Shown here: positions 1 to 20,441 of the stretch, in pieces
Layout: every line of letters starts with the position of its first letter
Numbering within the stretch: position 1 is the stretch's first letter
DNA from: a virus
Virus record (IMG/VR): IMGVR_UViG_3300020472_000196
Span: 1-21,710 of that record
Length of the DNA stretch: 21,710 bases
Direction: 5' to 3' (one strand)
Position numbers and translations under genes: made by a program
Notes under the pieces: generated by a model
Database searches by the model: none
What the model was told of the DNA's origin: nothing
What the model saw: only the letters and a program-made list of their open reading frames with translations

Positions 1-240
1 GCATTCTGGAAGGATGACTGGAGAAACTTCCACGTTCGTGCATCAGATGATTCATTCATTCAGTGTGTTAGTATCTTTGCTGTTGGTTTCGCTGACCACT
101 TCTTGATGGAGTCTGGTGGTGATATGAGTATCACCAACTCTAACAGTAACTTTGGTAATACATCCTTACATGCTATCGGTCATAAGGGATTCGCCTTTAA
201 CCAAGATAAGGGTGGATATGTTACTGACATTGTTCCACCA
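1..240 (+). other. Beta-helix-like end of an upstream domain (in giant protein)
   Basis: The first 80 codons contain alternating hydrophobic and small residues with Asn/Ser ladders ('FIQCVSIFAVGFADHF', 'SITNSNSNFGNTSLHAIG'). This is the look of the last coils of a right-handed parallel beta-helix, as in pectate-lyase-like phage tail proteins. Wobble positions here are richer in C (TTC, AAC, GAC, CAC) than in the repeats that follow. The fold call is inference from pattern only; most of the domain would lie upstream of the window. Confidence 0.4.
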
Positions 241-3200
241 GAGACAGTAGTTGAGACTTCTGGAAATACTAAAAAGAATGCTTATTATACTTTAGATGTA
301 CAGGCATCTAATGATCCTGATAATCATACAAAAATTTATATTGGTGATGATTTAGCATATGATCCAGCAAAACGTCCTGCTGCATCTATTGATGGGTATC
401 GTATAGGTGCTAAGAAGGATGATAAGATTAATGTTAAGTTAACCCCAAGAGCTGCAGGAATGGGGAATGAGTTCCAATCAACTCTAACTCCAAGTGGATT
501 TAAAGTATTTTCTGCTGCACCTGACGTTCTTAATCCTACTGGTGTTACTGTTAATAATGCTGATCTTGACGCTGCTAATAGAATTGAAGCGAATAAAGAT
601 TTCATTGCATACGAGGCATATGGATATATTACTTCAAAATATCCAGCTTTATTGGTTAATGAGAACATTACTATTACTAAATGTCGCCGTGATATAGGAT
701 ATCTTGTTGATGCTGCTGTACAGGATTTAAGACTTGGTGGTAACATCAATACTATTCAAGCTGCTGAATCATATTTCGTTGCTACTGAATTATCTTATAT
801 TAATCATGAATTAAGTGAGACATTAGAGGGATATGATTATGCTAGAGATCTAGCAATTGCTGCTGCTCGTAACTTTAAGTATCTACGTACAAATTCAAAT
901 ACTACACAGGGATCTTCTATTGTTAATGTAGGAGATACTAGTGGTATTGTACAGGGTATGACTGTTCTTGATTATGAACCATCTAGTTTCACTAATGGAG
1001 AGTTGAATCTTACTCCAACAAGACCTGCTTCACCTGCTATCCCTAGTAATACATTTGTTAAACGTGTTATTGATGCTTCTAGTATTGAAATAGGACAGAA
1101 AGCAACTTACAGTGAATATAAAGTAGTATCAGACAGACATGGTGATGCTGCAAACTTAATTGAAGCCAACAAAACATTTATTGCAGAAGAAGCACACGCA
1201 AGAATTCTTCTTGATTATCCAGGATATACTTATTACACTGGTACTAATGTTGCTACTGGTAATCCATATACTACTGCTGAAGCTAAAGCAAAGTGTATTG
1301 ATGATATTGAATTAGCTCTTAATAAGGTTGCTAAAGATACAGCATTTGGTGGTAATGCTGAGACATGGGATGCTGCTTACTATTATGATAGTGGTGCTGT
1401 TCTTGATTTAGCAAATAAGAAAGATGAAACTCTTACTGCTCTTAATTATGCTAAGGACATGGCTGTACAAGTCATGCGTAAGGAAGATGTATTTGTATTT
1501 GGTACACATGGATTAACTCAGGTTAAGACAACATCTCAGTTAGCAAATCCTATTGCAACTAAAGATGGTCATGCTCTTGATCCTATTACTTCTGAAGTTG
1601 GAGATGTAGTATCTGATAAAGGTGGTGATGCTCAGAAATTAATTGCTGCTAATAAAAATCTTATTGCACATGAAGCAGTTGAGAGGATGGTACTTCAGTC
1701 TTCTACTGCAACATTTACACCTGGAAATGGAACAACATATGATGCTTCAACTGGTAATTTAACCATTGCGTCTGTTGGTCATGGTCTTACAGGTGCTAGT
1801 ACAATAACAGCAACTAGTGCTGCTTATGATCCTACTACTGGTGTATTAACACTTACCAAGAATAGTCATGGTATGGCTAATGGTGAGAAGATTCAAATCG
1901 CAGATGAATCTATCTGGTTTAAGTGTACTATGGATAATAAGACTTCTGTTAAGAAGTATCCTAGGGCAACTGATCCTGTTAGTGGTAAGTGGTTGACTAT
2001 TTCTAATGTACAGACAAGTACATTTGATGTTAATGTCGGAAAATCATTATTTGTAAACTTTACTCCAACTGCTGCTGATTACAATCCAACAACAGGTCTA
2101 ATGACCTTGACGATTGGTAATCATGGATTGAGTGCTGGTACTGCTATTAAACTTCTTCCAGAGTCATTGAAGTTTAGTTGTGGATTTAATGGTGCTACTG
2201 GAACTTCTGCTGAGAAGTCATATCCAAGAGCAACAGGTGCTGACTCAGCAACTTATGATAAAGCGATTAACATTGAGTCTGTAACTAGTAATACTATTAC
2301 AATACAGGTTCTACCAAACACACCTTCTACCAACACTGATCCTCATACATTTGTTAGTGCTTTAACTGGTGCTGTTATTTCTGGTGGTAATTACACTCAT
2401 GAAATAGATCAGGTAGCTTCTGGTGGTATTAAGAGAGCTAATGATATTGTTAGAATAGATTATGATGCTTTAACATTTACATGTGGCATGGATAATGATG
2501 CTACAGAGCATAAGTATCCTCGTATCAGTGACCCTGCTGCTAGTTCAATACTTCCTATTAGTGATACAACGAATGATACATTTGTTGTTAATGTTGGTAA
2601 GACATTATCCAGCACATATGATGTAAGTGATGCATCATATAATCAAACAACAGGTGATCTTGTATTAACTATCAATGACCACAATCTTGTTAAAGGATCT
2701 TCTATTAGATTAGCAGATGGATCATTATCATTCAAGTGTGCTAAGGACGCTTATGGTACTCCACATTCATACCCACGTGCTACTGATCCAGCATATCAAA
2801 CTGGTCTAGAGATTACTGATGTTGGATCTTCATATCATTCAGCAACTGATGGTTCATATGATCCTGGAACTGGTATATTAAATCTTACTGTTGCTGGTCA
2901 TGGATTTAGTAATGGTAATAGGGTAAGGATTTCTGATCATTCTCTTACATTCACTTGTGGTATGGATGGAAATGCTACTGAGCATTCTTATCCTAGAGCA
3001 TCTGATGATGCGAGTGGTAAGTGGTTAGAAATTTCTGATGTTGATAACGATAGTTTCAGTGTTAATGTTGGAGCAGCAGGAGTAACTCAAGAATTTACTC
3101 CAGGTACATTAAGTACCTATGATCCTGTTAGTGGTGATTTAGTATTAGATATTGGATCTCATACTTTAGCAACTGGAGAAGGTGTAGTAATTGATGACAA

Positions 3201-6200
3201 TGCGTTATCATTTACATGTACTATGGATGGTAATGATTCTACTAAGACATATCCACGTCCTCTATTAGATCAAGCTGCATCTAGAACTCTACCTATTACA
3301 TCTAAGACAGATAGTACTATTACTGTTAATGTTGGTGGAGCAGGAACTGACAAATATTTCCAACCAACAGCAGCAATATATGATCAGAAGACTGGTGATA
3401 TGACAGTAACTATTGGTCAGCATGGTCTTCGTGCTGGATCTAATATTACATTAAAAGATAATTCTCTTAAGTTTACATGTGATAGAGACAATCATCAAAC
3501 AACTCACAGTTATCCTCGTGTTGGTACTGATCCTAAGGCAGGTAAATCTATTGATATTGATGAAGTAGGTTACATTACTAAAACCGCAACAAATGCTGTT
3601 TATACTCCAACTAACGGATTAATAGTTATTACTTCTAGTGGTCATGGATTTGTTAATGGAGATTATGTTCAGATTGCAGATGATTCTTTAACATTCTCTT
3701 GTGATCTAGGTACTGGTGATAAGACATATCCTCGTGCTGGATTTGATTATCCAAGTGGACGTTGGTTAGTAGTTACTAATGCTACCAATGATACATTTAG
3801 TATTAATGTTGGAACATCATCTAACAGTTCTGTTCATAGTTTTGAAGGTGCTGCTAATAATGGTATTAGAAAGCAAGATGGAACTATTAAATTTAATGTT
3901 GGTCAAACAAACATAACCAATTATACACCTGGTAATGCAACTGAATATAATCCTACCACAGGTGATCTTGTTTTAGATATTGGTACACACAGTTTACAAA
4001 CTGGATCTAGAATTAAGATTGCTGATGGTGCAATTAGATTTACATGTACTGAAGGTGCTGGTGAACATGCATATCCAAGAGCAACTGACCCTGCAAGTGG
4101 AAAGAGTCTTAATATTACTGCAACTACTTCAACAACAGTTACTGTTAATGTTTTAGATACTATACCATCTACTAATGTTACTGTTCATACATTTGTAACT
4201 AATAGTGGTGTTGTTAATTCAATAACAGCAGGTGATGATTATGAGCATACATTTGTACCTGGTCCAGAAAATGTAGATGCTGTAGAATATAAGCCACAGT
4301 CTATTCATACATTTGTAACTGCTGTTCCTAACAGTGTTAAGCAATTACCATTATCTACACACCAATTTGTTAGAGGTTCTTCTAATGGTGTTGAAAAACA
4401 ATCTGGTACTATTACTATTAATGTTGGTGTTGCTGCTAGTGGTGCTGATCAGTTTGAGCATCAATTTAATTCTGCTGGAACTCTTGCAGGTGCAGTAATT
4501 GCTGGTGGTAATTACACACATACTTGGATAAGTGCTGTTGATAATTCAGTACATAAAGTGTTCTCTGTTGGTGGTAGTAACTCTTATCATAATCAGGATT
4601 GTGTTGATGATGTTAATGATCTATTGGATGCAATAGGACATAACGTAGCATATGGTGGTAACGATAAGACATGGGATGCTGCTTATTCATATAAGACTGG
4701 TGCTCACGTTGCTGGTGAAGAGACAGAGACTAATGTAGTATTTGAATATGCCAAGGAAATGGCATCACAAGTCATAAGAAGACAGAAAGTATTATGCATA
4801 GGATCTCATGGATATTCTCAGGATTACAACCCAGATGGTCCAATAACAGCAGACATTGCTGATCCTCCAGTAGATAGGTTTGGAGATGCTCGTAACCTAT
4901 TAGAATCTAATAAGGCATTTATTGCTAAGGAAGCATATGAAAGAATGATTCTTAATAATGCTGGATTCTTACCACCTACAGGTAACAAGCAAGATTGTAT
5001 AGATGACATTGCAGATTTTGTTACCGAGATTGCTTACAACGTAGGATTTGGTGGTAATGATAGAACTTGGGACATGGCAAACTTGTATGTAACAGGTGCT
5101 CATGTTGCAGGTGAAGAGGAACAAACTCTTGCAGCATTTAAGGATGCTACTGAGATAATGGTTCAGGTAATGAGACAAGAGAAGGTTCTTACCATTGGAT
5201 CACATGGATTAACTCAGACATACGATCCAACCATTTCTACTCAAGCTGATGCTCCATTAGACAATAGGGTAGCTGATGCTAAGAATTTGATCATTTCCAA
5301 TAAAAATTTCGTGGCAGAAATTGCACTTGGAAGGATGACTGCACAATATCCTTCATACACATATCAGGTTGGATATAGTTCTGCTGATTGTCTTGATGAT
5401 CTTAAGGATGTTGTTGAAGTTGTTGCACATAACATGGCACATGGTGGTAATGACCGTGTATGGGATGCTGCTAACATGTATGTTGCTGGTGCTCATGCTT
5501 CAGGATCTGAGAATGAAACAATCTATTCATTCAATCAAGTACGTGACCTTATTCGTGAAGTAATGACTAATGTTGATGTTACTGTTGGTAGTTACACTTC
5601 ATTAACACAAGTAAAGGATACATCTATTACTAATGGTGTTGCTGATGGTAGATGTGATAGTGCAAAGAGTTCTGTTACATCTTTAGTACAGATTCTTACC
5701 AATACTATTGGTTCTCCATCTTCACTTGCTAATGTTGTACGTACTCAGTCTGTAACAAGATGTGAACAGGTGAGATCATCTATTAATACTTTATCTGGTA
5801 TTGTTACTAATGCTATCTCTAATCCTGGTAGTCTTGCTGCTATTACTAGAACTAGATCTGTTGGATTATGTGAAGATGTAAGAGCAACGGTTGATACATT
5901 ATTTGATATTGTAAAGAATACTGTTACATCACCATCATCTCTTGAGAGTGTTCATAGGACTCTTTCAAATGGTCCATGTCAGACTGTTGCTGGTTCTGCT
6001 ACTACTCTCTTTAGTATCATTACAAGTACTATATCTAATAATGGTTATCTTAATGGTATTGAAAGAAATTCAACTCCAAAGGGACTAGCATTTGGACCAT
6101 CTGTTAATGCTGATGCATCAACTACAAATTCATATCTATTCTTTAGTATGGATTCTGGTGTTTATACCTCTGAGCATTCTCCAGATAGCGATTCTTCTTT

Positions 6201-9200
6201 CTCATCAACAGCACCAAATAATCAAGATCAAGGATATCCTAAGTGTGCTACACAAGCAACTGCTATTCGTCAGTATTTTGCAAACATATCTACGATAATA
6301 CAAACAGGTCTTGATACTGTTCCTAGAAATGAGCCATCTAGTGCTTCATCTGATCTTTCTTCTAGAGCAACTATTTGGAATTTGGATGATCCTAATACAG
6401 CAGGATCCAATCCACATAATTTAGAGACAGGTACTCCAATACGTCTTGTTCCAAGACCAAGGAAAGATGTTAATGGAAATATTATTGATGTTGATAAGCG
6501 TTTTGTTAGACTTCCTAATGGATTCTCTCCTAATACTAAGTATTATGTAATTGCTCCTGGTAGAAATACACAACCAGAACAATATAAAAATACTGGATTT
6601 ACTTCTACTGATCAGACTAAGATAATGCTTGCAAACAGCAAGGAAAATGCTGCTGCTGGTATTTACATTCACTCAGCTGAAGTTGAAGGGATACATCCAG
6701 ACATTGCTATTGATCTCTATCAGTTTGTATTAGATGATAAGTATGATGTTCATGCTTACAATTGTACAGTACAGTCTACACCAAGTGGTGCTATTAGAAC
6801 TGATGTTCCTCATATATTTGATGTTCCAACTGCTAATACTTCAGGTCATGAGGTATTCTTTAAGAAGAATGAAGGTGGTGAATTACCAATAGTAGGAACT
6901 TCTTTCCAGCAAGATACTGATGTTAGTTTTGGTAGTAGATTGAGAGAAGATCAATCATTCTGGGCTAGGTATGTTGATAAGAATACATTTACTATTCATA
7001 AGACTAAGGATGATGCTCAGAATAATACTTCTGTAATAACATTCAATACTGCTGGACAGAAAGGATTCTCTGTATTCTGCAACAAGCGTGAGTCTTGTAT
7101 GCGTTTTGATCCTACATATGCTAATCCTAATACCAACCCACAAATATATGGTAAGTGGTATTTACAGGTTAAGAATGAATCTCAGAATCCATCTAATGCA
7201 AATTATACTTACAGTATATTAACTAGATTGCATGAAGCAGCATATAATGATCTTTCTGGAATTGAGAAGACTAATGATTCATGGTTTGAAAGAATTAAAG
7301 ATGAGAGAGATGCAGATGATCGTATCTATCGTTTACGTTATGTTGTACCACAGTATCTGAAGTCAGTTCGTGATCCTCTTAATGGATTTACAATTAAGAT
7401 ACGTAAGGACACAACAAGAAAACTTTTACCTCAAAAGATTCTATTGTTGCCTGTTGTTACTAATGCTGATCCTAAGGCGGTATTTTATAACCCTGCTCAA
7501 CCATCTGAAAAGATTGGTGCTACTAGAGCAGAATTAGAGGCGATAAATGGACATGATAAATCTTTAGAGTATGATCCATTTAGAAAGCCTCAGTCATCTA
7601 GTGGTCCTCAGGTATTTGCTAAGACTATCAGAACTAATCATGGATTGATTGATTTTACAATCCAGTCTGGTAGATATGTAAACTTACCTTCTTCTGGTGG
7701 TGGTATTGATGCATTAGAATTAACAGTAATGGATCCAGGTATTACTAGTACCATTGGTCTTCTTAATGAGAAATTAACTACTGTTAAAATTGATGTTCCT
7801 CAAGGTGGAAACTTTGTTGCTAGTGCTAGTGTCTCTAATGATTCTAATAAGATTGAATGGGCAGGTAATTGTTCTGGATCTGGTTATATACATGCTGCTC
7901 TTAATGTTCCTGGAACAGATACATGGCACTTAATACTGAAAGGTATTGTTAGATCAAATGTATCTGATACAGAAGCATTATATTATGATTCTAATGAGAA
8001 TACAAGATTCACCCAAGTACAGAAAGATGCAAATGGAGTTATAATTGATTCTGTATTTGCAGATCTACTTTCCGATAGAGACTTTGGTAAGTCTTTAGAA
8101 ACTAAAGATCTTATTGATAAGCATCTACCACAATACTATTATAAGCAGAAAGGTGCTAAGGTTTACACATTGACACCTGGTGATGTTGTTACTGCACAGA
8201 ATAATAATACTGATTATTATATTGCATCTGTAGAAGATGTTGGAGAACTTGATGACAACTTCTATATCTTTGATGTACAGGAAGTTCAGAGACGTATCTT
8301 TGATCAGCAAGATGGTATTTACTATCTAACTGCTGTTCGTGGTAACATTTCACCAATGCCAACAGGTGCTGGTAACTTAGGTAACTTCAGGAACTTCAAG
8401 TTCTCTCAACCTATTAGCAAACTATATCCATTAAATTATAAGAATGATCCTCTTTGGTTCAAACAATTAGATACTGCTGCTATAGATCCTCCACGCACAT
8501 ATTCTGCTGCTGACAACTATATTCATGGTCTTGTAACAGTCAATGACTTTAAAGGATCAATGACTAAGGAATCTGTATTTGATATCCTTGAAACTGCTGC
8601 GTTTGAAGGTAAGACATATACAGGTGATAATGCAATTCAATCACAGGATGGTAATGCTACCTCTGGTTCTGAAGATCGTTTAATTCCTATTGCTGGTGAT
8701 AGTACTGTTGCTTCAGATCAAAGATTATACATTGAACTTAGACGACCATCTATTGCTCGTGCTGGTAACCATACGTTTGAATACCTTGGTTTTGGTCCAG
8801 GTAACTACTCAACTGGTCTACCTCAAAGACAGGAAGTTGTACTTGAACCTATTCAAGACTTCTATGCTCAGTCTAAGAAGGAAGACGGTGGTTTAGTATT
8901 CTACACTGGTCTTAACTCTAATGGTGACCTATACATTGGTAACCGTAAGATTGATGCTATCACTGGTGAGGAAGAGTTCTTAGAATCTGCACAGTTAGTT
9001 GATTCTGATGATGATAATGAAGATATTGGTAGTCTTGTTACTACGTTTGATACTCCTGTAACATTTAATGAGTATATCACAGTTAATGGTGGTGACAATC
9101 AGGATAAGACAAGTACATTTAACTCACCTGTAACTATTAATGTTCTTGGTAGAATTAGAGAACCTTCTCTTAAAATTATTTCTGGTGTTGATCCTAACCA

Positions 9201-12200
9201 AGGTGATGATGCAAGTCTTGCTTCTCAAAATCAATATTTAAATCAGGATACATTTGGACATATTGTTCTTGCTAAGAATAGAATTGCTGCATCTGTATTC
9301 CAGTTTAACCCACGTGGTTCATCTGGTGCTGCTCAAGGATATAAGATACAAAACCATGTTGTTGGTAATTTAGGATCAAATATTGCTCCTAATCAAAGTA
9401 CTCCTATTAGTGCTGGTGGTTCAGCAATTGATCCTAGTCAATTTGTTCAGTATGGAAATGCTGGAGCACCTTTAGCAGGTGACATGTTACTTAAAGGTAA
9501 TGATGTAAATCGTTCTGGTTCACTTGGTTGGATATATGCAAACTCCTTTGCTGAAGTTGCTACTTCTCAGATTAAGAGATTAATCTTTGATGGTACTAGT
9601 GTAGTTACTATTGAATGGGAAGGAACACTTGAGAATATTGATCTTGGTGTTACTAGTGGTTCTCAGTTAAAGATCACTGGATTTAGTGATAGTGCATTGA
9701 ATGGTACATGGACTGTTATTCCTAATGGATTTATTGCTACTGCTCAAACTTGTCAGTTCTCTATTATTGAGAACAGGGCTAATGTAAGTAATGATAATCC
9801 AAGAGATTGGAATCAAAATAGTGAACCTAATGCTCAACTATTCCTTGCTAATTCTTCTTGGAAGGAATTCTCTGTTCTTGGTGCTGAGACAATTAGAACT
9901 AAGACAGATCATCAAGGTGATTATAGATTAGGTGTTAACACCATTGCACGTTCAAATCATGATGCTTATCTAACTGGATTTGTTAGTGATGCAACTGATC
10001 CTAGAGCAAACTTAGATGTAGTTGGATCTGCATTTATATCTGGTAAATCTCTTGTTACCTATGATGCTGATGATATTGCAGTTAATACAAATGCATACAA
10101 TTCTGAAGAATTGCTTGCTGATAGAACATGGGTAGATGAAGATAATGCGTTTGTAGTTGGTGGTGATAGTAGAGAGGGTGTTGATCCTCTTAATCTTGAT
10201 GCCAATGCTAATCCTATCCCATATCAGGACAACGAAGCAACACTTAGAGTTGCTACTACCAATGGTGGTAGAGTTGGTGTTAATGTAACTAATCAAGAGT
10301 TAGACAGAGCACTGGTTGTTGATGGAACTTCTAGGTTTACTAATGATGCTAAGTTCCAACAGGATATAGAAGTTGATGGTGGTAATGGTGCTGGTACTGC
10401 TGAAATCAGAACTGGTATTACCACAGGAACATTTGAATTTGTGATGGACAATACATTCACTGGTACTACTACTGGTGGAAGTAATGGTCTTAAGATAGGT
10501 GGATCAGCACAGAATATTGAGATTGGAGATCAACAATCTAATGTTCAAACTTGGTTGGTTGGTAATGCAAGTACTGATAGTACATTCCATGTTGGATTTA
10601 CTGATAATGGTAATGGATCTGAAGTATCTAAACTTCATATTGGTGGTGCATATACAAGTAACGAATCAAATTCTTACGTAGAAGTAGGAACTAAATCATT
10701 CATTGCTAATGGTGATGTTTGGATTGGTGGTGCTCCTTCCAGTCGTAATAAGAGAGGAGAGACTGATACAGTAAATCTTTATACTGGTGCAGGAACTGTT
10801 GATTTCTTCTCTAATTCTGGTGGTCCTTCTACTATTAAGTTTGCTACTAATGCATCTGATTTAAGTATTGCTGGTCAAGGTGGTACAACAACCATTAATA
10901 ATAAACTACAGGTAAATGCATCTGCTAAATTCCTTAGTGATATTTGGTTGTGTGGTGGTACATCATCATTTGAATTTACTGGTGATAGAGAACAGATGGG
11001 TTCTACTAGTCCTACTAATGGACATTCAGCTGGCACAGCATCACCATTCTCAGATGTTAATCCTGACAAGAACATAGACATATTAAATGTAATTGTTAAG
11101 TTATCTACTGAAGAAGGATACAATAGAGTTGATACTGATGGTTCTCGTGATTGGGGTGGTGCAGCAGATCAAGCTGCGTTAAGTGGAACAGGATATAGTT
11201 TCCCAGCTTTAACTGGAGATCATTATTATCTACCATTAAAGAATGAACCTGTTAAGGTTAATGGTGATCCTTACTTCGTTAATGGTGACTATCTAATCAT
11301 TGATACTGGTATAACAGCAGGTACATATCCAGAAGTTGTTCAGATTGTTGAATTAACAAGAACAAATGCAGCACCATATATTGTCAAGGTTGTTCGTCAA
11401 CCATTTGGTACATTTACTGGTACACATGCAGCACACCCTGATACAACTGATATATTCAGAGTTAATGTTCAGTTTGATTCTACTTGGACAACACAACCAC
11501 TTGATAATACTGGACCTCAAGATGCTGTTTATCTCGCAGAGTTTGGTGGTAGTTTAACAACTAATGATTATATTATTGCTGGACGTAGTGATACTACTAG
11601 CGATGGTATAAACGATACAGGTGAAGTAATAGGTATTGCTGCTATTCTTGGACAGCAGAATCAGGTATTGAAGGTTACAAACTGTCAGGATCCTGATAAG
11701 ACTATGTTTGAGGTTGATTCTGTAACTGGTGAAGTTACTATAGGCAACCCAGATATACCAGGATCTTCAGTTAATATTAACACAACAATTAAACTCAAGG
11801 GTGGTTGTGGAACAATTAAGAGTGAGATTATTACTGCTACTGCTACTTCTGGAAGTTCTTATCTAACTGGTATAAGTGCTGCTGATATTGCCAAGGTTGA
11901 AGTTGGTGATGTTGTAAGAGTTGATACATCAATGATCAGTGCTCTTACTGAAATAGCAACAAATTATGTAACCGAAGTAACTCCTAATGGAAGTAATAGT
12001 ACCATTAAATTACGTGATGAGCTTTCAGGTGGGTACACTTTAACATCTGTCCAGTGGTTTATAACACAAAATGAAACTCTTACTCTAACCAATGGTAAAG
12101 AGCAGCAGAATTTCAATGTTGATTCTTGTACTGGAATAGTTAAGATAGGTAATCATATCCGTAGAGTTGATGCACAGGAATTCTATCCTGCATCTAGGAC

Positions 12201-13665
12201 TCCAGTAGAAAGTACTTCTGATTGGTCATCTATTAAAGATGATGTACGTGTTCATTCTTATTGGCAAGATCCACTAACATTAAACTTAGGTAAGAGAACA
12301 ATTGTTCGTGCTGCTGTTACTGCACATGGTACTTATGATTGGAGTATTCCAGTTAACGGTCTACCAGCATCTAATGGTGCATTTGAAGTTGGTGATCTAC
12401 TCATAGTAGGATCTCCTAGTGACATATCAACAAGTCCAGCTCCAGGTTTACATGAGATATTAATAATTCGTGAAATTGATGAGACTGTTGGAGCAGAAGT
12501 TCTTGTTTGTGATGGTGCTCAAGAAGGTTCAACTGCTGCTCAAGCTGGTGATTACTCAGTTAATGATGTCATAGTAGCACTTAGGAAACATCCTGAGAGT
12601 TCAAGACTTATTGACTTAGAACCAAGAACAAGAACAACAACAAACGATTATCTCTCAGTTATTCTTGATACAGGATATATTGTTCAGAGTACGATTGATT
12701 ATATTCAGTACATAAGATTTGAAAATATTTCTACTGGTACTAACACATGGTTTAAGGTTAACTCCAACATGGAGGGTACTGTTCATAAACCAAATGGAAT
12801 GAGGGAGAATCCTACATTTGGAACCCTTGGGTATGGTACTGGTGGAATAGAAATGGGTGGTGATTTGACCATGATTGGTGGTGATGTCAGAATCTATGAT
12901 TCTGTGAATAAATCACTACTGTTGAAGTTTGGTAATGATAAAGGTCATGCTGAACATTTGGGTACTCTTCAAATAGATGCTGGAATTATTGCTAAGGGTG
13001 ACTTCTACATGTATCCAAGTGATTGTCCAGAGCATGTATTCCAGACACCACAATTATGCACAACAACATTTAGTATTGACAATGATGGTGATGTTACTGT
13101 CGGTAAGACACTTGAAGTAGTTGGATTGCCAGCCGTAACCCCTTCTAGTGGAGTTGAGGTATTTAAGGTTGGTAATCTTGGTACTTCTGGAGTCAATTCA
13201 TTAAGTGTTAAACATACAGGTGAGATTGCTGCTTTTGGTGTAGATCCTTTCTGGACTAAATCAGGTGGTATTCATACAAGATATGTTTCTAGTGGATCAG
13301 ATGCTGCTGATAAGACACTTATACCAAATATAATATACCTTACAAATACTACTTCTACCAGTACTCTAGTTTTAACATTACCACAGTCTCCTGATACGGG
13401 TGATATTGTAAAAATTGTTGATGTTAGTGGTAATTTAGATTATCAGACCAGTTTAGTTATTCGTGCTCCAGGAACAGGTGTTAATGTTCAGGGTGATAGC
13501 ACAGGAACTACTCTTGGTGGATTGGGTACTGCATATCCTTCTGGTGAATTGGTTGTTCAAACACCTAATGCTGGATTTGCATTAATATATCTGGGATCTG
13601 TAGCATCTAATGGTCAAGTGGGAATCCCAACAACAGATCAAGGTTGGTGGTTACTGGAGGTTTAA
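1..13665 (+). CDS. Giant modular virion structural (tail/fibre-like) protein, 5'-partial
   Basis: The frame is open from base 1, so the first in-frame ATG (103) is internal and the true start lies outside the window. At least 4554 residues are visible. By in-window codon number the modules are: 1-80, beta-helix-like end (block 'SITNSNSNFGNTSLHAIG'); 190-510, helical repeats A and B; 543-1607, split repeat C carrying a beta-repeat array; 1629-1871, repeats D and E; 1884-2028, four 36-residue repeats; about 2130-3000, a conserved central region ending in 'NHTFEYLGFGPGNYST'; 3000-4410, a shaft of fibre-like beta segments such as 'FEVDSVTGEVTIGN'; 4420-4554, a C-terminal cap ending in 'GWWLLEV'. 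No enzyme motif, signal peptide or membrane segment is apparent. Large proteins with these blocks occur in T4-like cyanophages, where some annotations use the label vrlC. A role in the tail or baseplate and host contact is inferred from family resemblance and from the collar genes downstream. The exact virion position is unknown. Confidence 0.9.
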   Translation, partial: AFWKDDWRNFHVRASDDSFIQCVSIFAVGFADHFLMESGGDMSITNSNSNFGNTSLHAIGHKGFAFNQDKGGYVTDIVPPETVVETSGNTKKNAYYTLDVQASNDPDNHTKIYIGDDLAYDPAKRPAASIDGYRIGAKKDDKINVKLTPRAAGMGNEFQSTLTPSGFKVFSAAPDVLNPTGVTVNNADLDAANRIEANKDFIAYEAYGYITSKYPALLVNENITITKCRRDIGYLVDAAVQDLRLGGNINTIQAAESYFVATELSYINHELSETLEGYDYARDLAIAAARNFKYLRTNSNTTQGSSIVNVGDTSGIVQGMTVLDYEPSSFTNGELNLTPTRPASPAIPSNTFVKRVIDASSIEIGQKATYSEYKVVSDRHGDAANLIEANKTFIAEEAHARILLDYPGYTYYTGTNVATGNPYTTAEAKAKCIDDIELALNKVAKDTAFGGNAETWDAAYYYDSGAVLDLANKKDETLTALNYAKDMAVQVMRKEDVFVFGTHGLTQVKTTSQLANPIATKDGHALDPITSEVGDVVSDKGGDAQKLIAANKNLIAHEAVERMVLQSSTATFTPGNGTTYDASTGNLTIASVGHGLTGASTITATSAAYDPTTGVLTLTKNSHGMANGEKIQIADESIWFKCTMDNKTSVKKYPRATDPVSGKWLTISNVQTSTFDVNVGKSLFVNFTPTAADYNPTTGLMTLTIGNHGLSAGTAIKLLPESLKFSCGFNGATGTSAEKSYPRATGADSATYDKAINIESVTSNTITIQVLPNTPSTNTDPHTFVSALTGAVISGGNYTHEIDQVASGGIKRANDIVRIDYDALTFTCGMDNDATEHKYPRISDPAASSILPISDTTNDTFVVNVGKTLSSTYDVSDASYNQTTGDLVLTINDHNLVKGSSIRLADGSLSFKCAKDAYGTPHSYPRATDPAYQTGLEITDVGSSYHSATDGSYDPGTGILNLTVAGHGFSNGNRVRISDHSLTFTCGMDGNATEHSYPRASDDASGKWLEISDVDNDSFSVNVGAAGVTQEFTPGTLSTYDPVSGDLVLDIGSHTLATGEGVVIDDNALSFTCTMDGNDSTKTYPRPLLDQAASRTLPITSKTDSTITVNVGGAGTDKYFQPTAAIYDQKTGDMTVTIGQHGLRAGSNITLKDNSLKFTCDRDNHQTTHSYPRVGTDPKAGKSIDIDEVGYITKTATNAVYTPTNGLIVITSSGHGFVNGDYVQIADDSLTFSCDLGTGDKTYPRAGFDYPSGRWLVVTNATNDTFSINVGTSSNSSVHSFEGAANNGIRKQDGTIKFNVGQTNITNYTPGNATEYNPTTGDLVLDIGTHSLQTGSRIKIADGAIRFTCTEGAGEHAYPRATDPASGKSLNITATTSTTVTVNVLDTIPSTNVTVHTFVTNSGVVNSITAGDDYEHTFVPGPENVDAVEYKPQSIHTFVTAVPNSVKQLPLSTHQFVRGSSNGVEKQSGTITINVGVAASGADQFEHQFNSAGTLAGAVIAGGNYTHTWISAVDNSVHKVFSVGGSNSYHNQDCVDDVNDLLDAIGHNVAYGGNDKTWDAAYSYKTGAHVAGEETETNVVFEYAKEMASQVIRRQKVLCIGSHGYSQDYNPDGPITADIADPPVDRFGDARNLLESNKAFIAKEAYERMILNNAGFLPPTGNKQDCIDDIADFVTEIAYNVGFGGNDRTWDMANLYVTGAHVAGEEEQTLAAFKDATEIMVQVMRQEKVLTIGSHGLTQTYDPTISTQADAPLDNRVADAKNLIISNKNFVAEIALGRMTAQYPSYTYQVGYSSADCLDDLKDVVEVVAHNMAHGGNDRVWDAANMYVAGAHASGSENETIYSFNQVRDLIREVMTNVDVTVGSYTSLTQVKDTSITNGVADGRCDSAKSSVTSLVQILTNTIGSPSSLANVVRTQSVTRCEQVRSSINTLSGIVTNAISNPGSLAAITRTRSVGLCEDVRATVDTLFDIVKNTVTSPSSLESVHRTLSNGPCQTVAGSATTLFSIITSTISNNGYLNGIERNSTPKGLAFGPSVNADASTTNSYLFFSMDSGVYTSEHSPDSDSSFSSTAPNNQDQGYPKCATQATAIRQYFANISTIIQTGLDTVPRNEPSSASSDLSSRATIWNLDDPNTAGSNPHNLETGTPIRLVPRPRKDVNGNIIDVDKRFVRLPNGFSPNTKYYVIAPGRNTQPEQYKNTGFTSTDQTKIMLANSKENAAAGIYIHSAEVEGIHPDIAIDLYQFVLDDKYDVHAYNCTVQSTPSGAIRTDVPHIFDVPTANTSGHEVFFKKNEGGELPIVGTSFQQDTDVSFGSRLREDQSFWARYVDKNTFTIHKTKDDAQNNTSVITFNTAGQKGFSVFCNKRESCMRFDPTYANPNTNPQIYGKWYLQVKNESQNPSNANYTYSILTRLHEAAYNDLSGIEKTNDSWFERIKDERDADDRIYRLRYVVPQYLKSVRDPLNGFTIKIRKDTTRKLLPQKILLLPVVTNADPKAVFYNPAQPSEKIGATRAELEAINGHDKSLEYDPFRKPQSSSGPQVFAKTIRTNHGLIDFTIQSGRYVNLPSSGGGIDALELTVMDPGITSTIGLLNEKLTTVKIDVPQGGNFVASASVSNDSNKIEWAGNCSGSGYIHAALNVPGTDTWHLILKGIVRSNVSDTEALYYDSNENTRFTQVQKDANGVIIDSVFADLLSDRDFGKSLETKDLIDKHLPQYYYKQKGAKVYTLTPGDVVTAQNNNTDYYIASVEDVGELDDNFYIFDVQEVQRRIFDQQDGIYYLTAVRGNISPMPTGAGNLGNFRNFKFSQPISKLYPLNYKNDPLWFKQLDTAAIDPPRTYSAADNYIHGLVTVNDFKGSMTKESVFDILETAAFEGKTYTGDNAIQSQDGNATSGSEDRLIPIAGDSTVASDQRLYIELRRPSIARAGNHTFEYLGFGPGNYSTGLPQRQEVVLEPIQDFYAQSKKEDGGLVFYTGLNSNGDLYIGNRKIDAITGEEEFLESAQLVDSDDDNEDIGSLVTTFDTPVTFNEYITVNGGDNQDKTSTFNSPVTINVLGRIREPSLKIISGVDPNQGDDASLASQNQYLNQDTFGHIVLAKNRIAASVFQFNPRGSSGAAQGYKIQNHVVGNLGSNIAPNQSTPISAGGSAIDPSQFVQYGNAGAPLAGDMLLKGNDVNRSGSLGWIYANSFAEVATSQIKRLIFDGTSVVTIEWEGTLENIDLGVTSGSQLKITGFSDSALNGTWTVIPNGFIATAQTCQFSIIENRANVSNDNPRDWNQNSEPNAQLFLANSSWKEFSVLGAETIRTKTDHQGDYRLGVNTIARSNHDAYLTGFVSDATDPRANLDVVGSAFISGKSLVTYDADDIAVNTNAYNSEELLADRTWVDEDNAFVVGGDSREGVDPLNLDANANPIPYQDNEATLRVATTNGGRVGVNVTNQELDRALVVDGTSRFTNDAKFQQDIEVDGGNGAGTAEIRTGITTGTFEFVMDNTFTGTTTGGSNGLKIGGSAQNIEIGDQQSNVQTWLVGNASTDSTFHVGFTDNGNGSEVSKLHIGGAYTSNESNSYVEVGTKSFIANGDVWIGGAPSSRNKRGETDTVNLYTGAGTVDFFSNSGGPSTIKFATNASDLSIAGQGGTTTINNKLQVNASAKFLSDIWLCGGTSSFEFTGDREQMGSTSPTNGHSAGTASPFSDVNPDKNIDILNVIVKLSTEEGYNRVDTDGSRDWGGAADQAALSGTGYSFPALTGDHYYLPLKNEPVKVNGDPYFVNGDYLIIDTGITAGTYPEVVQIVELTRTNAAPYIVKVVRQPFGTFTGTHAAHPDTTDIFRVNVQFDSTWTTQPLDNTGPQDAVYLAEFGGSLTTNDYIIAGRSDTTSDGINDTGEVIGIAAILGQQNQVLKVTNCQDPDKTMFEVDSVTGEVTIGNPDIPGSSVNINTTIKLKGGCGTIKSEIITATATSGSSYLTGISAADIAKVEVGDVVRVDTSMISALTEIATNYVTEVTPNGSNSTIKLRDELSGGYTLTSVQWFITQNETLTLTNGKEQQNFNVDSCTGIVKIGNHIRRVDAQEFYPASRTPVESTSDWSSIKDDVRVHSYWQDPLTLNLGKRTIVRAAVTAHGTYDWSIPVNGLPASNGAFEVGDLLIVGSPSDISTSPAPGLHEILIIREIDETVGAEVLVCDGAQEGSTAAQAGDYSVNDVIVALRKHPESSRLIDLEPRTRTTTNDYLSVILDTGYIVQSTIDYIQYIRFENISTGTNTWFKVNSNMEGTVHKPNGMRENPTFGTLGYGTGGIEMGGDLTMIGGDVRIYDSVNKSLLLKFGNDKGHAEHLGTLQIDAGIIAKGDFYMYPSDCPEHVFQTPQLCTTTFSIDNDGDVTVGKTLEVVGLPAVTPSSGVEVFKVGNLGTSGVNSLSVKHTGEIAAFGVDPFWTKSGGIHTRYVSSGSDAADKTLIPNIIYLTNTTSTSTLVLTLPQSPDTGDIVKIVDVSGNLDYQTSLVIRAPGTGVNVQGDSTGTTLGGLGTAYPSGELVVQTPNAGFALIYLGSVASNGQVGIPTTDQGWWLLEV
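568..891 (+). repeat. Helical repeat copy A (giant protein)
   Basis: First, most divergent copy of a 110-130 residue repeat. It opens with 'DAANRIEANKDFIAYEA', has the conserved Cys codon at 682 ('KCRRDI') and continues through 'LRLGGNINT' and 'YARDLAIAAARNF'. The opening Asp codon and the Cys are 114 bases apart, as in copy E. It lacks the TWDAA motif of later copies. Predicted mainly helical from its pattern of Ala, Leu, Glu and Lys. Confidence 0.7.
1144..1521 (+). repeat. Helical repeat copy B (giant protein)
   Basis: Copy B opens with 'DAANLIEANKTFIAEEAHAR', has its Cys codon at 1294 ('KCIDDI'), then 'AFGGNAETWDAAYYY', 'YAKDMAVQVMRKEDV' and closes with 'GTHGLTQ'. The Asp-to-Cys distance is 150 bases, about 12 residues longer than in copies A, D and E, from an extended loop rich in Thr and Ala. 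Confidence 0.85.
1825..4150 (+). repeat. Array of nine beta repeats with FxC and YPR motifs (giant protein)
   Basis: Each unit follows the pattern Tyr-x-Pro/Gln-x-Thr/Ser-Gly, a beta strand, 'HGL' or similar, Gly, 'IxIxDxSLxFxC', a loop, 'YPRxxDP', and usually a closing 'TFxVNVG'. Units start at 1825, 2080, about 2431 (lacks the first half), 2638, 2857, 3118, 3379, 3601 and 3946. Spacing is often about 220 or 261 bases. A further degenerate first half begins near 1738. All nine units keep the Cys and the Tyr-Pro-Arg. Likely small beta domains strung along a fibre and exposed on the virion; binding function is unknown. Confidence 0.85.
4180..4560 (+). repeat. His-Thr-Phe modules at about 60-base period (giant protein)
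   Basis: Short modules headed by His-[Thr/Gln]-[Phe/Trp] recur, with His codons at 4186, 4246, 4306, 4360, 4459 and 4519. Most intervals are 54 or 60 bases (18-20 residues). Typical text is 'HTFVTAVPNSVKQ' and 'GGNYTHTWISAVDNSV'. Related modules lie inside the beta array at 2344-2430 ('HTFVSALTGAVISGGNYTH') and near 3835. These are probably beta hairpins stacked along a fibre; the fold is inference. Confidence 0.7.
4885..5217 (+). repeat. Helical repeat copy D (giant protein)
   Basis: Canonical compact copy: 'DARNLLESNKAFIAKEAYER', Cys codon at 4996 ('DCIDDI'), 'GGNDRTWDMANLY', 'GAHVAGEEEQT', 'MVQVMRQEKV', 'GSHGLTQ'. Its Asp start is 390 bases before that of copy E, and the two are tandem neighbours. 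Confidence 0.88.
5275..5610 (+). repeat. Helical repeat copy E (giant protein)
   Basis: Last copy: 'DAKNLIISNKNFVAEIALGR', Cys codon at 5389 ('DCLDDL'), 'GGNDRVWDAANMY', 'GAHASGSENET', 'IREVMTNVDV', 'SYTSLTQ'. The Gly-Ser-His of copies C and D is replaced by Gly-Ser-Tyr near the end. It passes directly into the 36-residue repeat block. Confidence 0.85.
5650..6084 (+). repeat. Four tandem 36-residue repeats, exact 108-base period (giant protein)
   Basis: Conserved Cys codons occur at 5653, 5761, 5869 and 5977, each exactly 108 bases apart. The unit reads approximately Cys-x-x-Val-x(5)-Thr/Ser-Leu-x-x-Ile-Val-x-x-x-Ile-x-x-Pro-x-Ser-Leu-x-x-Val-x-Arg-Thr. Examples are 'RCEQVRSSINTLSGIVTNAI' and 'LCEDVRATVDTLFDIVKNTV'. 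Predicted as a helical hairpin per unit. The fourth copy is the most degraded ('PCQTVAGSATTLFSIITSTI'). Confidence 0.85.
6400..9000 (+). other. Conserved central region of the giant protein
   Basis: A non-repetitive stretch of about 860 residues with more charged and aromatic residues than its flanks. It opens with an 'HNLETGTPIRLVPRP' strand-loop like those in the beta array. It includes 'LRYVVPQYLKSVRDPLNGF' and closes with 'NHTFEYLGFGPGNYST' (8767-8814) and 'GLVFYTGLNSNGDLYIGN'. I recognise the last block as recurring in tail proteins of marine T4-like phages, but cannot assign a biochemical role. Nothing catalytic is visible. Confidence 0.6.
9001..13230 (+). other. Fibre-like shaft of the giant protein
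   Basis: Long low-complexity beta-rich region with repeated strand-turn text: 'TFNSPVTINVLG', 'TNGGRVGVNVTNQ', 'RFTNDAKFQQDIEV', 'TTTINNKLQVNASAKFLSDI', 'FEVDSVTGEVTIGN', 'FNVDSCTGIVKIGN', 'FSIDNDGDVTVGKTLEV'. Such segments are typical of trimeric phage fibre shafts. Two apparently globular inserts interrupt it, about 11040-11700 and about 12180-12700. There is no S74 peptidase domain at the end. Confidence 0.6.
13260..13662 (+). other. C-terminal cap domain of the giant protein
   Basis: The last 135 residues read as a compact beta domain: 'LVLTLPQSPDTGDIVKIVDV', 'LVIRAPGTGVNVQGD', 'FALIYLG' and terminal 'GWWLLEV'. The pattern Pro-x-x-Gly-Asp-x-Val-x-Ile-x-Asp, then an apolar strand, then Gly-Trp-Trp at the end is common at C-termini of phage tail and fibre proteins. 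It suggests an intact 3' end rather than a truncation. Confidence 0.6.
13656..13660 (+). promoter_or_regulatory. Ribosome binding site for the first collar gene
   Basis: GGAGG lies inside the last codons of the giant gene, 8 bases before the ATG at 13669. It supports that start and suggests coupled translation. Confidence 0.85.
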
Positions 13666-16425: not shown

Positions 16426-19400
16426 TGCCAAACTATAGATCAAAATATAAGAATTACTATTCTGATAAGACAGGTGGATATGCTTCTGTTGGGAGTATAT
16501 TACCTGTTATTGTTGATCAGCATACTGATGTTCTTAATAATACTGTAAATGCTCCATCAACAAAGAATATTGAGTATAATTATCCAGGATGGATATACAC
16601 AGATGGATCACAGTATGATATTAAAGAATATCCTTTCTTATATGATATAATTGGCAATAGATATAATTTAGATACTGATGCTGACAATACTGTTGATGTA
16701 CAGGATGTCATGGCAGTTGGTTCTATCCAGAAAATGTTTTGGGATAACGATAAATTATATGTTGAGATTCTGAATGATTTTAATGCTCCACCACTACAGG
16801 ATAATAAGAGAGCATGGCCTTATAACTGTAATATGAGAATTAGTGGTCTGGGGGCCATACCTACTGGATTATTTGAGGTTTTTGGTAGTGCTTTAACTGG
16901 TGGTGGATTTTCAACTGCTAGGTATCCATTAGTTCTTAATGATAATACAGTAGGTCTGCTTTCGTCAGCACCGAATAGGACAGTTTACAAAGTGCTTGAT
17001 AAAGATGGTAATGACTTTGATGGTACACAGTATACACAGGCAAATTATACTATAGATTTTACTACTGGTGGTAATACACACCCAACACTAAAAATCACTA
17101 AGGCATTTATTCTTAGTGATTACCCACATTTTATTGGTAAGTTCAGAGTACCTGATTACAGAGAAAGAAAATTACTTGGTTATGGTGATGGTGTAGAAGG
17201 TGGTGGAACTTCTGTAGTTGAGAATAGAACTAGTATTAAAGTTGGTGATATTGGTGGCAAATGGGTTATTCCTACGACTAGATTAGATGATGCTGGATCA
17301 TTTTATACTATCAGTGATGTTGTAACATCTGGTTACGAGAAAGTAACAGCACCTGTACCAATGGTATTGGTTGGATCTGTTAAATATGAAGTTGGTCCAA
17401 TGGCTGACCAACCATTAGCAAGACCAGCTGAACACGATCATCAGTTATTACATACCAGAGTAGATGAGAGTGCTACTCCAACAATGATTGGTATGATGGA
17501 TGAATTTACTTCAGGTTGGAGAAATCAGATTGCACAAGTATTACCTTTTGTTCCTGGTACTGCTGATGGTACTCAATTGTGGCATTGTCATGGAATAATA
17601 GGAGAGAGGATGCAGAATGCATCAACAGCAACTTACGGTAATGTTAGTGGTATTGGTGAAGTAGTAGATGATACTGCTACATGTCCAGACTATAGGGTTA
17701 CACAGGCTCCACCGTTACCAATTGCTTCTGTTACTGCTGATGGTACTGATCTTACAGTATCTACTACTGCATCACACAATTTATCTGTTACTAACTGGAT
17801 AACTATTACTAATGGTGGTGGTAACTGGGATGGTAATTATGAAATTAAAACTGTAACATCTGGTGTTGCATTTGTTGCACAGAAGGCTACTGGTGAAGTT
17901 ATGCCTAATGGTACTATGCCAGGTGGAGCTGTTGTTAAACAAGCAGATGGTATATTTTCACCAGTTCCTACATTAGATGATCCTCTAGCTTATGTTGTTA
18001 ATGATCAAACTGTAATTGGTAATCAACCAATCATTGTGTATGATCCATCTCAGATGGAAACAAGATTTGAAGAGGAGTTAACGGCTTCTGGAACAATAAC
18101 TAAATCTCTTTCTGATGCAGGTAGTGATGTTGCTCAAGTACTTATTACTATAGTTGCTCCAGGTGGTGCTGGTGGTAATTCTACTCAGAATGGTGGAACA
18201 CCAAGTGCTTCATATGTTCAATTCACATTTAATAATCAAACATACACAGCATATGCTTATGGTGGACAAGGAGGACAGGCAGGAGATGCTGGTAGGGCTG
18301 GTGGTACTGGTGGTGGTGTCGCAATATTAGATAGTCAAGGTAATAATGCAATACCATTTCTATTAAATGATAGTAGATTCTCTATTAATACTCAGGAAAC
18401 AGGAGCAACTGGTGGAGCTGGAGCAGTTCAATCTGAAACTGGTGGACCAGGTGGTTCTAATAGTTCTAGTCCTATAGGTGATGGTGGTGCTGGTATTGGT
18501 ACGACATTTAATTCACAAACAACATCATATTTCCCTGGTCCAGGACCAAATGATAAGTTATTTCATACTGCTGGTCGTGGAGCATCTGCAACTACTGGAA
18601 CATACTCACCCCCTTCTGGAGTTGTATCACAAATGACTGTCAAGTTGAGTGGTGGTTCTGGTGGAGATGGAAATGGTGCTAACGGTGGTCTTGCTATGTC
18701 TGGATGTGATGGCACTAATGCTAATGGTGGATTGGGAAGAAATGGTAGTGAGTTAACATTAACAGCAAGTGTTGGATTAGGATTTCAATATACTCTTGCT
18801 AGTGGTGGTGGTCATGGAACTGCTACTCAGATTAATAATAATGGTGAGCTACCAAATAATAATAGAGGTCGTGGAGAGAACTCAGCCGCTGATGGTGGTA
18901 TTACTGGACCAGGTGCTTGGGGAAATGCTGGTACAGGTGGATGTGGTGGTGGTGCTTCAACAATAAGAGTAACAGGTCAATTAGCTGCTGTCGCTGGAGG
19001 CGGTGGTGGTGGCGGTGGATCAGGTGGTGGATGGAATGGTGGAATGTGGGATACATGTGATGGAGGTCAAGCAGGTCAACCACCTGCTGCTGGATTACAC
19101 AATTCTAACGCTATTCAGTGTAACATGGGTGGTAATGGTACATCATCAGGATGTACTGCTGGATCTGGTGGTGCTGGTGGAGGAGGCGGTGGTAATGCCC
19201 CTTCTGCTGGTGGTGGTGGTGCTGGACAAGAATCTGACCCATCTCAAGGTGGTGGTGCTGGTGAAGGACATGGTAACAAAGGTGGTGGTAAAGGTGGTGG
19301 AAGTGGACAGTCTGCATACAGAACTAGTCAATGGGATAGTGGATCACTTGATATGAATGGAGGATCAACTGAAAGTGGATATATTCAGGTAACAGCAGTT

Positions 19401-20441
19401 GCAACAGAATCAGGTACATTAGATTCTGGTGGTGGTGGAGGTGCTGGTGGTGTTCTTGCTATTGCAATTACTGCTGGAACTGGAGATGATTTAGCAACTG
19501 GTATCAATGCTGTATTAGCAGCACCTGGATCTGGTGGTGCTGGTGGTGCAACTGATGGTAAAATATATGTTAAACTTGCTGGATTAAAAGCAGGTGAATC
19601 TGGAGAAACAGGAAGAACCACTGCTGCTGGTAGAGGATATAGATGTCCTGATTATCCAACATCAAAAGATTATGATGAAGCTGTACTTGCATCTGGTACT
19701 AATATATGGGTTGATGCAACAACTGATGGTGGTAGTGCAAATGACATCAAGGTTCTTGCACCAACAACAGGAACATTTCCAGTAGCTCCTTCATCAATGC
19801 ATGATGGTAAAGTTACTAGGTTTATTAATTTCTCTGGTGCTGGTGAAAGGAAACTAACTATTGGACCTCTTAATGGTACATACATTAATACATTATACTT
19901 TGATATCATTAAGGGTAATGGTAGTAATGGTGGACAGACACCTCAAGAGAACTTGAAGTTATATTATAAGGATGCAATTGATGGTAGTCCAACACTAGCT
20001 GATGCACTTGTATTGACAAGTGTTAATGATCCAAATTATAATACATATTCATATACTTTTCCAGTTTCAAGTCAGGCAGCAATAAGAACTGCTACATTAT
20101 ATCTTGACGTAGTTCAAGACTTTGGTGGTAGTAATCCTGCTGAAAGTAGTTTTGGTATCTCACAGATGGTTGCTACTTTCAATGAAAGAATAAGTTATGT
20201 ATTCTCACCATCTTCAAACGCTTCAATACCAGGTAACACAGGTACATGTGGTACAGATATTGGTATTAACTCTGTAAAGAGAGAAGTGTTTGCTCATAAG
20301 AGTGGTATGTTTGTTAATGGTGGAGATTTTACACTAAATGCATCAAATCCAGTCACTGTTAGTTCATCAGTTATTGTTAATAATCCTTTGCCACTGTTAA
20401 CAAAATACTTTAGATCTAAATACCTAATTAAAGCGATCTAA
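16425..20441 (+). CDS. Collar domain, glycine-rich domain and beta-domain fusion adhesin, 1338 aa
   Basis: Large presumed adhesin. An N-terminal collar-like region has 'GSILPV' (23-28), 'GWIYTDGSQYDIKEYPFLYD' (55-74) and 'FRVPDYRERKLLGYG' (240-254). About 155 residues separate the last two pieces, so the collar fold appears to carry a large insertion. His-x-His motifs are His-Asp-His (337-339) and His-Cys-His (387-389). A strand-loop module, 'SHNLSVTNWITITNGGGNWD', begins near residue 449. Residues about 578-1045 are extremely rich in glycine. The last 280 residues form a beta-rich domain ('GAGERKLTIGPLNGTYINTL', then 'NLKLYYKDA') that may be a jelly-roll lectin-like fold. The start overlaps the previous stop and no clear Shine-Dalgarno is visible, so translational coupling is likely. 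The adhesin role rests on domain resemblance, including the composition of S16 gp38. Confidence 0.82.
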   Translation: MPNYRSKYKNYYSDKTGGYASVGSILPVIVDQHTDVLNNTVNAPSTKNIEYNYPGWIYTDGSQYDIKEYPFLYDIIGNRYNLDTDADNTVDVQDVMAVGSIQKMFWDNDKLYVEILNDFNAPPLQDNKRAWPYNCNMRISGLGAIPTGLFEVFGSALTGGGFSTARYPLVLNDNTVGLLSSAPNRTVYKVLDKDGNDFDGTQYTQANYTIDFTTGGNTHPTLKITKAFILSDYPHFIGKFRVPDYRERKLLGYGDGVEGGGTSVVENRTSIKVGDIGGKWVIPTTRLDDAGSFYTISDVVTSGYEKVTAPVPMVLVGSVKYEVGPMADQPLARPAEHDHQLLHTRVDESATPTMIGMMDEFTSGWRNQIAQVLPFVPGTADGTQLWHCHGIIGERMQNASTATYGNVSGIGEVVDDTATCPDYRVTQAPPLPIASVTADGTDLTVSTTASHNLSVTNWITITNGGGNWDGNYEIKTVTSGVAFVAQKATGEVMPNGTMPGGAVVKQADGIFSPVPTLDDPLAYVVNDQTVIGNQPIIVYDPSQMETRFEEELTASGTITKSLSDAGSDVAQVLITIVAPGGAGGNSTQNGGTPSASYVQFTFNNQTYTAYAYGGQGGQAGDAGRAGGTGGGVAILDSQGNNAIPFLLNDSRFSINTQETGATGGAGAVQSETGGPGGSNSSSPIGDGGAGIGTTFNSQTTSYFPGPGPNDKLFHTAGRGASATTGTYSPPSGVVSQMTVKLSGGSGGDGNGANGGLAMSGCDGTNANGGLGRNGSELTLTASVGLGFQYTLASGGGHGTATQINNNGELPNNNRGRGENSAADGGITGPGAWGNAGTGGCGGGASTIRVTGQLAAVAGGGGGGGGSGGGWNGGMWDTCDGGQAGQPPAAGLHNSNAIQCNMGGNGTSSGCTAGSGGAGGGGGGNAPSAGGGGAGQESDPSQGGGAGEGHGNKGGGKGGGSGQSAYRTSQWDSGSLDMNGGSTESGYIQVTAVATESGTLDSGGGGGAGGVLAIAITAGTGDDLATGINAVLAAPGSGGAGGATDGKIYVKLAGLKAGESGETGRTTAAGRGYRCPDYPTSKDYDEAVLASGTNIWVDATTDGGSANDIKVLAPTTGTFPVAPSSMHDGKVTRFINFSGAGERKLTIGPLNGTYINTLYFDIIKGNGSNGGQTPQENLKLYYKDAIDGSPTLADALVLTSVNDPNYNTYSYTFPVSSQAAIRTATLYLDVVQDFGGSNPAESSFGISQMVATFNERISYVFSPSSNASIPGNTGTCGTDIGINSVKREVFAHKSGMFVNGGDFTLNASNPVTVSSSVIVNNPLPLLTKYFRSKYLIKAI
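18160..19560 (+). repeat. Glycine-rich low-complexity domain, polyglycine-II-like (in collar fusion protein)
   Basis: About 465 residues dominated by Gly runs: 'VAPGGAGGNS', 'GGGGGGGSGGGWNGG', 'GGAGGGGGGNAPSAGGGGAG' and 'GGGKGGGSGQ'. At DNA level it is a degenerate GGT/GGA tract. The runs alternate with short non-glycine stretches that could be exposed loops. In phage S16 gp38, glycine-rich stretches pack as a polyglycine-II sandwich that displays specificity loops. That this block folds likewise is inference. Confidence 0.75.

Follow-up and report, generated by a model that had tools for sequence, protein, structure and literature searches.

Phycobiliproteins of the Pfam family PF00502 (phycocyanin, phycoerythrin and allophycocyanin) are proteins of 160-177 residues, in which the N-terminal helices X and Y serve alpha-beta pairing. 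The phycobiliprotein domain of ApcE (L-CM) carries a PB-loop, an insertion of 50-55 residues that follows position 81 and precedes the residue aligned with Cys81 of ApcA (PMC5436742). Nested insertion is already known from the SI3 of cyanobacterial RNA polymerase, where hybrid motifs are inserted into one another in the order A1-B1-C-B2-A2, to six levels (PMC13114784). In the phages of these hosts the part played by cpeT has been called 'unresolved' and the one played by pcyA/pebS 'a mystery' (PMC3037559), and T-type lyases have been reported to serve Cys-beta153, not Cys84 (PMC10452541). Cyanophage tail-fibre families have been named phrog_4527, phrog_5342 and T4-GC 734, and these family names are silent on a relation to phycobiliproteins, on an insertion port and on nesting. 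Among the open-licence literature, we found no paper on phycobilisome domains in phage fibres.

We describe here a predicted giant cyanophage tail fibre whose helical repeat is a divergent, shortened phycobiliprotein-fold domain made of helices A, B, E, F and G. One copy of the repeat is split by a long array of beta units, at a loop that related cyanophages fill with further copies of the same domain. We hold this anatomy of the fibre and its phycobiliprotein homology to be very probable.

Helical repeats of a giant fibre gene

The window, by which we mean the whole 21,710-nucleotide stretch of DNA analysed (a 21.7-kb environmental virus record), is likely a fragment. It is best explained as part of a T4-like marine cyanophage (Kyanoviridae-like) encoding a predicted giant tail fibre. 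The giant ORF (Table 1) was matched by PHROG phrog_4527, 'short tail fiber protein', with 2828 bits in a profile search, and each of the three ORFs that follow it matches PF07484, the Collar domain, with one score above the cut-off and two just below it. This profile and the adjoining tail-collar genes point to a T4-like cyanophage tail fibre, and the giant short-tail-fibre genes of S-PM2, Syn1 and S-RIM32 resemble the window ORF. A stretch of the third downstream tail ORF (window 18000-20000) is rich in Gly and shows high GC as well as GC skew.

Table 1. Features of the giant fibre gene, in window coordinates
Feature	Coordinates	Strand	Basis or remark
Giant tail-fibre ORF (predicted)	1..13665	+	4554 codons, open at contig 5' end
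Repeat copy A, phycobiliprotein-fold domain, motif KCRRDIG	559..909	+	Repeat profile
Repeat copy B, long 150-base loop version	1132..1521	+	Best Pfam PF00502 match of the window
Copy C, N half, helices A-B, codons 539-566	1615..1698	+	Profile; model helix 2-28
Insert in copy C B-E loop, 964 codons (567-1530)	1699..4590	+	Comparison with unsplit orthologues
FxC/YPR beta unit 1	1819..2046	+	Unit profile
Beta unit 2	2074..2313	+	Unit profile
Beta unit 3, without first strands	2434..2604	+	Unit profile
Beta unit 4	2632..2832	+	Unit profile
Beta unit 5	2854..3078	+	Unit profile
Beta unit 6	3115..3339	+	Unit profile
Beta unit 7	3373..3573	+	Unit profile
Beta unit 8	3595..3819	+	Unit profile
Beta unit 9	3940..4158	+	Unit profile
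His-Thr-Phe type modules ending the insert	4159..4590	+	Motif count; beta strands in model
Copy C, C half, helices E-G, CVDD motif	4591..4821	+	Profile, orthologues, model
Repeat copy D	4873..5217	+	AlphaFold2 pLDDT 92.5; Foldseek matches mostly phycobiliproteins
Repeat copy E	5263..5610	+	Repeat profile

A profile of the repeat recovered copies A, B, D and E of the window, each of them whole (1e-38, 5e-43, 9e-50 and 3e-45, respectively). The initial annotation had set the distance from the opening Asp to the conserved Cys at 111-114 bases in copies A, D and E, at 150 in copy B and at 2973 in copy C. Recounting returned the same values: 114 in A (D190-C228), 111 in D (D1629-C1666), 114 in E (D1759-C1797), 150 in B (D382-C432) and 2973 in C (D543-C1534, with Cys1534 at bases 4600-4602). 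It had also stated that the two halves of copy C still match the other copies. The repeat profile indeed finds both (2e-14 and 1e-32), and the invariant residues of the intact copies are kept in both halves. Downstream of copy E (window 5650-6030) stand four short Cys repeats of ~37 residues each (RCEQVRSSINTLSGIVTNAISNPGSL...), similar to those in a related contig (L123).

The homology of the repeat to phycobiliproteins rests on profile searches, a template-free model and Foldseek. Over the whole ORF, PF00502 scored 30.1 bits against a cut-off of 22.2; single repeats of the window scored below the 22.2-bit cut-off (best 21.0), and 38 of 54 diverse single repeats matched at E up to 0.1. When all PDB sequences were searched with the repeat profile using hmmsearch, the best 60 of 177 matches were phycobiliproteins or a derived fluorescent protein, with a best value of 3e-7. 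In a search of 2,896 ORFs from 80 cyanobacterial loci near cpcA, phycobiliproteins accounted for 176/176 matches with E<0.01, and the first protein of another kind ranked 184th. Alignment of the repeat family with phycobiliproteins by hhalign gave 96.7% and an E-value of 5e-10 over 117 columns. For copy D, AlphaFold2 without templates returned a five-helix model (pLDDT 92.5). Phycobiliproteins came first and made up most of its top 50 Foldseek matches, with globins and two engineered fluorescent proteins among the others; the best match had a probability of 1.00 and a TMq of ~0.7. The E-values were weak (best 0.017), but probabilities and ranks agreed with one another. In BFVD, the fold of the repeat was found in fibre or structural proteins of S-WAM2, S-ShM2, S-PM2 and others.

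The repeat thus shares with phycobiliproteins the core profile, the model fold, a Cys-x-x-Asp motif and the B-E loop that precedes this motif. It differs from them in length (~115 residues) and in lacking the N-terminal X/Y helices, as it aligns from ~residue 34-35 of the PDB chains and from profile position 29-34 of 155; it probably lacks helix H as well. Unlike phycobiliproteins, the fibre repeats occur in tandem and nested within a phage tail-fibre protein. Another contig (L095, from 4147) has a 4175-residue ORF with 22 unbroken phycobiliprotein-like repeats, and CpeT was not found nearby.

The split of copy C at its B-E loop

Alignment with phycobiliproteins places the insertion point of copy C in the B-E loop, just before the bilin-attachment Cys. 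The PB-loop of ApcE sits in the same region; however, it is short and predicted to be partly disordered, whereas the fibre port takes either beta-unit stretches of 840-2600 residues or additional whole copies of the domain. Homologues without the insert were sought in order to map its borders, and copy C is unbroken, at ~114 residues, in the contigs L115/L116, L117, L118, L121/L123 and L132. The L115/L116 contigs have exactly five repeats, with copy C whole. At the place of the array in the window, these unsplit relatives have a loop of ~11 residues (KYPTFTVAGGN or similar). Against L115, the N half of window copy C scored 95 with copy 3 and 42-85 with the other copies, and the C half scored 312 with copy 3 and 94-238 with the others; in the unsplit relatives tested, copy 3 was the best orthologue of both halves. 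Because orthologous contigs carry an unbroken copy C, the insertion reading holds, and the possibility that copy C had never been continuous is ruled out. The initial annotation had described a domain array spliced into a tolerant loop, a view borne out by the unsplit orthologues and by the inserts that the same loop holds in many phages.

The split is common to ~25 non-redundant relatives, in which the inserts span ~840-2,617 residues and 9-29 beta units. An assembly chimera was also considered for the split, and is out: the break recurs at the same place in these ~25 non-redundant contigs, from many metagenomes, and isolates have similar ones. On a quick tree made from the sequence that follows the insert, split versus unsplit amounts to one change, which may be either a gain or a loss.

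The inserted material was said to be of another class, with nine FxC/YPR beta units and His-Thr-Phe modules. This agrees with our count of nine FxC and nine YPR motifs at codons 640-1360, and of HTF/HSF/HQF/HTW motifs at codons 782, 1279, 1396, 1416, 1436, 1454, 1487 and 1507. By profile, too, there are nine beta units, all within copy C and none elsewhere in the ORF, and in the unsplit orthologues checked the profile did not find FxC/YPR units. The family phrog_1276 overlaps the beta units. A sequence comparison of the beta unit with the PDB gave no match below E 0.27, an NCBIfam search of the insert found no family, and Foldseek with a 1200-residue model gave low-probability matches only, the best (0.41-0.44) being fibronectin fragments. 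Structure prediction of codons 500-1900 had been proposed as a check on whether the two halves pack as one helical unit with the array as a side branch. The 1200-residue model, which spans copy C, insert and copy D, has a helix at 2-28, strands at 32-981 with a few very short helices, and helices at 993-1054; the overall confidence (pTM 0.41) was too low to place the packing of the halves. The order of the model is in line with a split domain at this low confidence.

We propose that phycobiliprotein-fold domains stand in series within the fibre shaft, and that copy C exposes its B-E loop, where the beta array would leave and return. With the two ends of the port close together, the chain could exit, form another structure and come back without keeping the domain from closing. 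In the clade of the window, the port of copy C carries the 9-29 FxC/YPR units plus the HTF modules; in related isolates the port carries further copies of the same domain, to four deep. Given loop ends this close, the array most likely forms a lateral side arm of the shaft that contacts the host surface. We infer this geometry and contact role, and likewise that the split domain closes in three dimensions. A unit count that varies while the borders stay fixed fits a module for surface contact that differs from strain to strain, and we put the chances of an adsorption role for the array at about even.

Recursive use of the loop in cyanophage isolates

In twelve cyanophage isolates scanned for N halves (profile positions 2-40) and C halves (from ~30), the halves are ordered like brackets. 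Among the complete architectures with halves are NCff, NfCff, NNfCCff, NfNfCC, NfNNNfCCCfC, NfNfCNCC, NffNNNfCCCNCfC and ffNCff, every one of them balanced; those scored as unbalanced were cut by a contig end or belonged to a class with a second port. The junctions of the halves cluster at profile positions 29-42 and 26-39. With labels assigned at random, a balance as good as the observed one has p ~5e-5; this value takes no account of common ancestry, by which the bracket genomes are linked and so are not independent samples. As judged from these half-domain matches, cyanophage isolates use the port recursively, with domains nested to four deep. The recursive architecture is like that of RNA polymerase SI3, although the latter is built of a hybrid motif in another protein; nesting of a phycobiliprotein-type fold in phage fibres differs from it in both fold and protein.

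Comparison of S-PM2, which has one bracket, with Syn1, which has two, bears directly on the pairing of the halves. The single N half of S-PM2 matched the outer N half of Syn1 (N1) at 36/44, and its single C half matched the outer C half (C2) at 73/102. The intact middle domain of S-PM2 matched Syn1 N2 (23/38) and C1 (47/80) better than it matched the inner domain of Syn1 (58/108). From these half and middle-domain matches, S-PM2 is therefore an empty site with respect to Syn1. The S-PM2 record (L137, NC_006820.1 168556-173383) annotates a tRNA cluster inside the giant fibre CDS. ARAGORN found no tRNA inside this CDS and nine others upstream of it, so the annotations look misplaced.

An 'ffNCCff' class of 11 ORFs seemed at first to be unbalanced. 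One of these, in L126, has a second port at codons 2343-2418, in the F-G loop of copy C, which holds one extra FxC/YPR unit. All 11 ORFs have the L126-type pattern of matches; the class is probably no exception, on the strength of L126, the one read in detail.

Alternative readings and the bilin motif

Convergence of alanine-rich helical bundles or globin-like folds, with no common descent, might account for the likeness to phycobiliproteins, given an identity of just ~17-20% and a repeat without X/Y helices and probably without helix H. We consider this highly unlikely, as the matches near cpcA with E<0.01 were phycobiliproteins without exception, the best 60 of 177 PDB matches were phycobiliproteins or derivatives, the Cys-x-x-Asp pair and the GG after it are among the landmarks that align, and cyanobacteria are the hosts. 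It is also conceivable that each N or C half is a short helical module in its own right and that the array lies between two unrelated ones, for which the unreadable packing of the halves in the C-insert-D model leaves some room. Such modules are nevertheless contradicted by the unsplit orthologues, the balanced counts of N and C halves and the S-PM2/Syn1 comparison, which together make this reading scarcely credible. For the array itself, the wide range of unit numbers between fixed ends is what a length ruler would show, in which case it would be a passive in-line spacer that makes the fibre longer or stiffer. If copy C closes, however, an insert whose ends are a few residues apart should not add contour between copies B and D; an in-line spacer is thus rather unlikely, and a side arm is preferred.

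A different function for the domains themselves is suggested by their bilin-attachment motif. The Cys is kept in 676/680 domain copies and the Asp three residues on in 679/680 (redundant contigs included), or in 98% and 100%, respectively, of 125 non-redundant repeats. Since the window begins within the fibre gene, its own upstream genes are unseen, and the evidence on CpeT and bilin reductases is taken from relatives of the window virus. A CpeT-family gene lies <=3 kb upstream on the same strand in 23/27 fibre loci, many of which have two. In three contigs (G008, G009 and G010), a bilin reductase gene sits between the two CpeT genes and directly upstream of the fibre gene; a fourth (G011) also has one directly upstream. 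The fibre domains might therefore be functional biliproteins, to which phage CpeT-family lyases attach bilin at the Cys, the bilin coming partly from the phage's own reductase, so that the fibre would be pigmented and light-responsive or photoprotective. Most domains of the isolates with CpeT beside the fibre gene have the canonical CxRD, and the puzzle of phage cpeT and pcyA/pebS would fit as well. Several points weigh against this reading. The Arg86 position of the Cys84-x-Arg86-Asp87 motif is Asp in 478 and Arg in 185 of the 680 domains; within the clade of the window, unlike in phycobiliproteins, it is mostly Asp, and in the window itself only copy A has Arg, with Asp in copies B-E. The Cys persists without detectable CpeT in P-SSM7 (one of two domains), S-BM3 and ACG-2014d, several CpeT-bearing isolates have no reductase, the reported T-type lyase site is Cys-beta153, and the synteny of CpeT with the fibre may be plain inheritance. 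A pigmented fibre is consequently unlikely in our estimation.

Two further observations concern the CpeT neighbourhood. In the L118 contig (G007), a 464-codon frame at 23719-25029, just upstream of the fibre gene, has two CpeT domains. A conserved protein of 96-98 residues directly precedes the CpeT gene nearest to the fibre in L123 (6045-6341), L132 (6579-6875) and L030 (5280-5570).

With the phycobiliprotein-fold fibre as the preferred reading, a light-harvesting fold of the host has been re-used as structural material of the infecting virus. One named loop lets this fold take inserts of very different size, its own copies included. The giant fibre genes of cyanophages, now labelled just 'structural' or 'tail', gain a readable grammar. 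Because the Cys and Asp are near-invariant and the fibre gene has CpeT and reductase neighbours, a bilin-carrying virion fibre is a testable, unproven idea, and with it the purpose of phage cpeT, pcyA and pebS becomes a testable question. There is a small chance that the phycobiliprotein-like fibre domains are unrecognised acceptors of the phage bilin enzymes (CpeT-type lyases and PcyA/PebS-type reductases); if so, the virus would place bilins on the fibre that it uses for adsorption, whether in place of boosting host photosynthesis or in addition to it.
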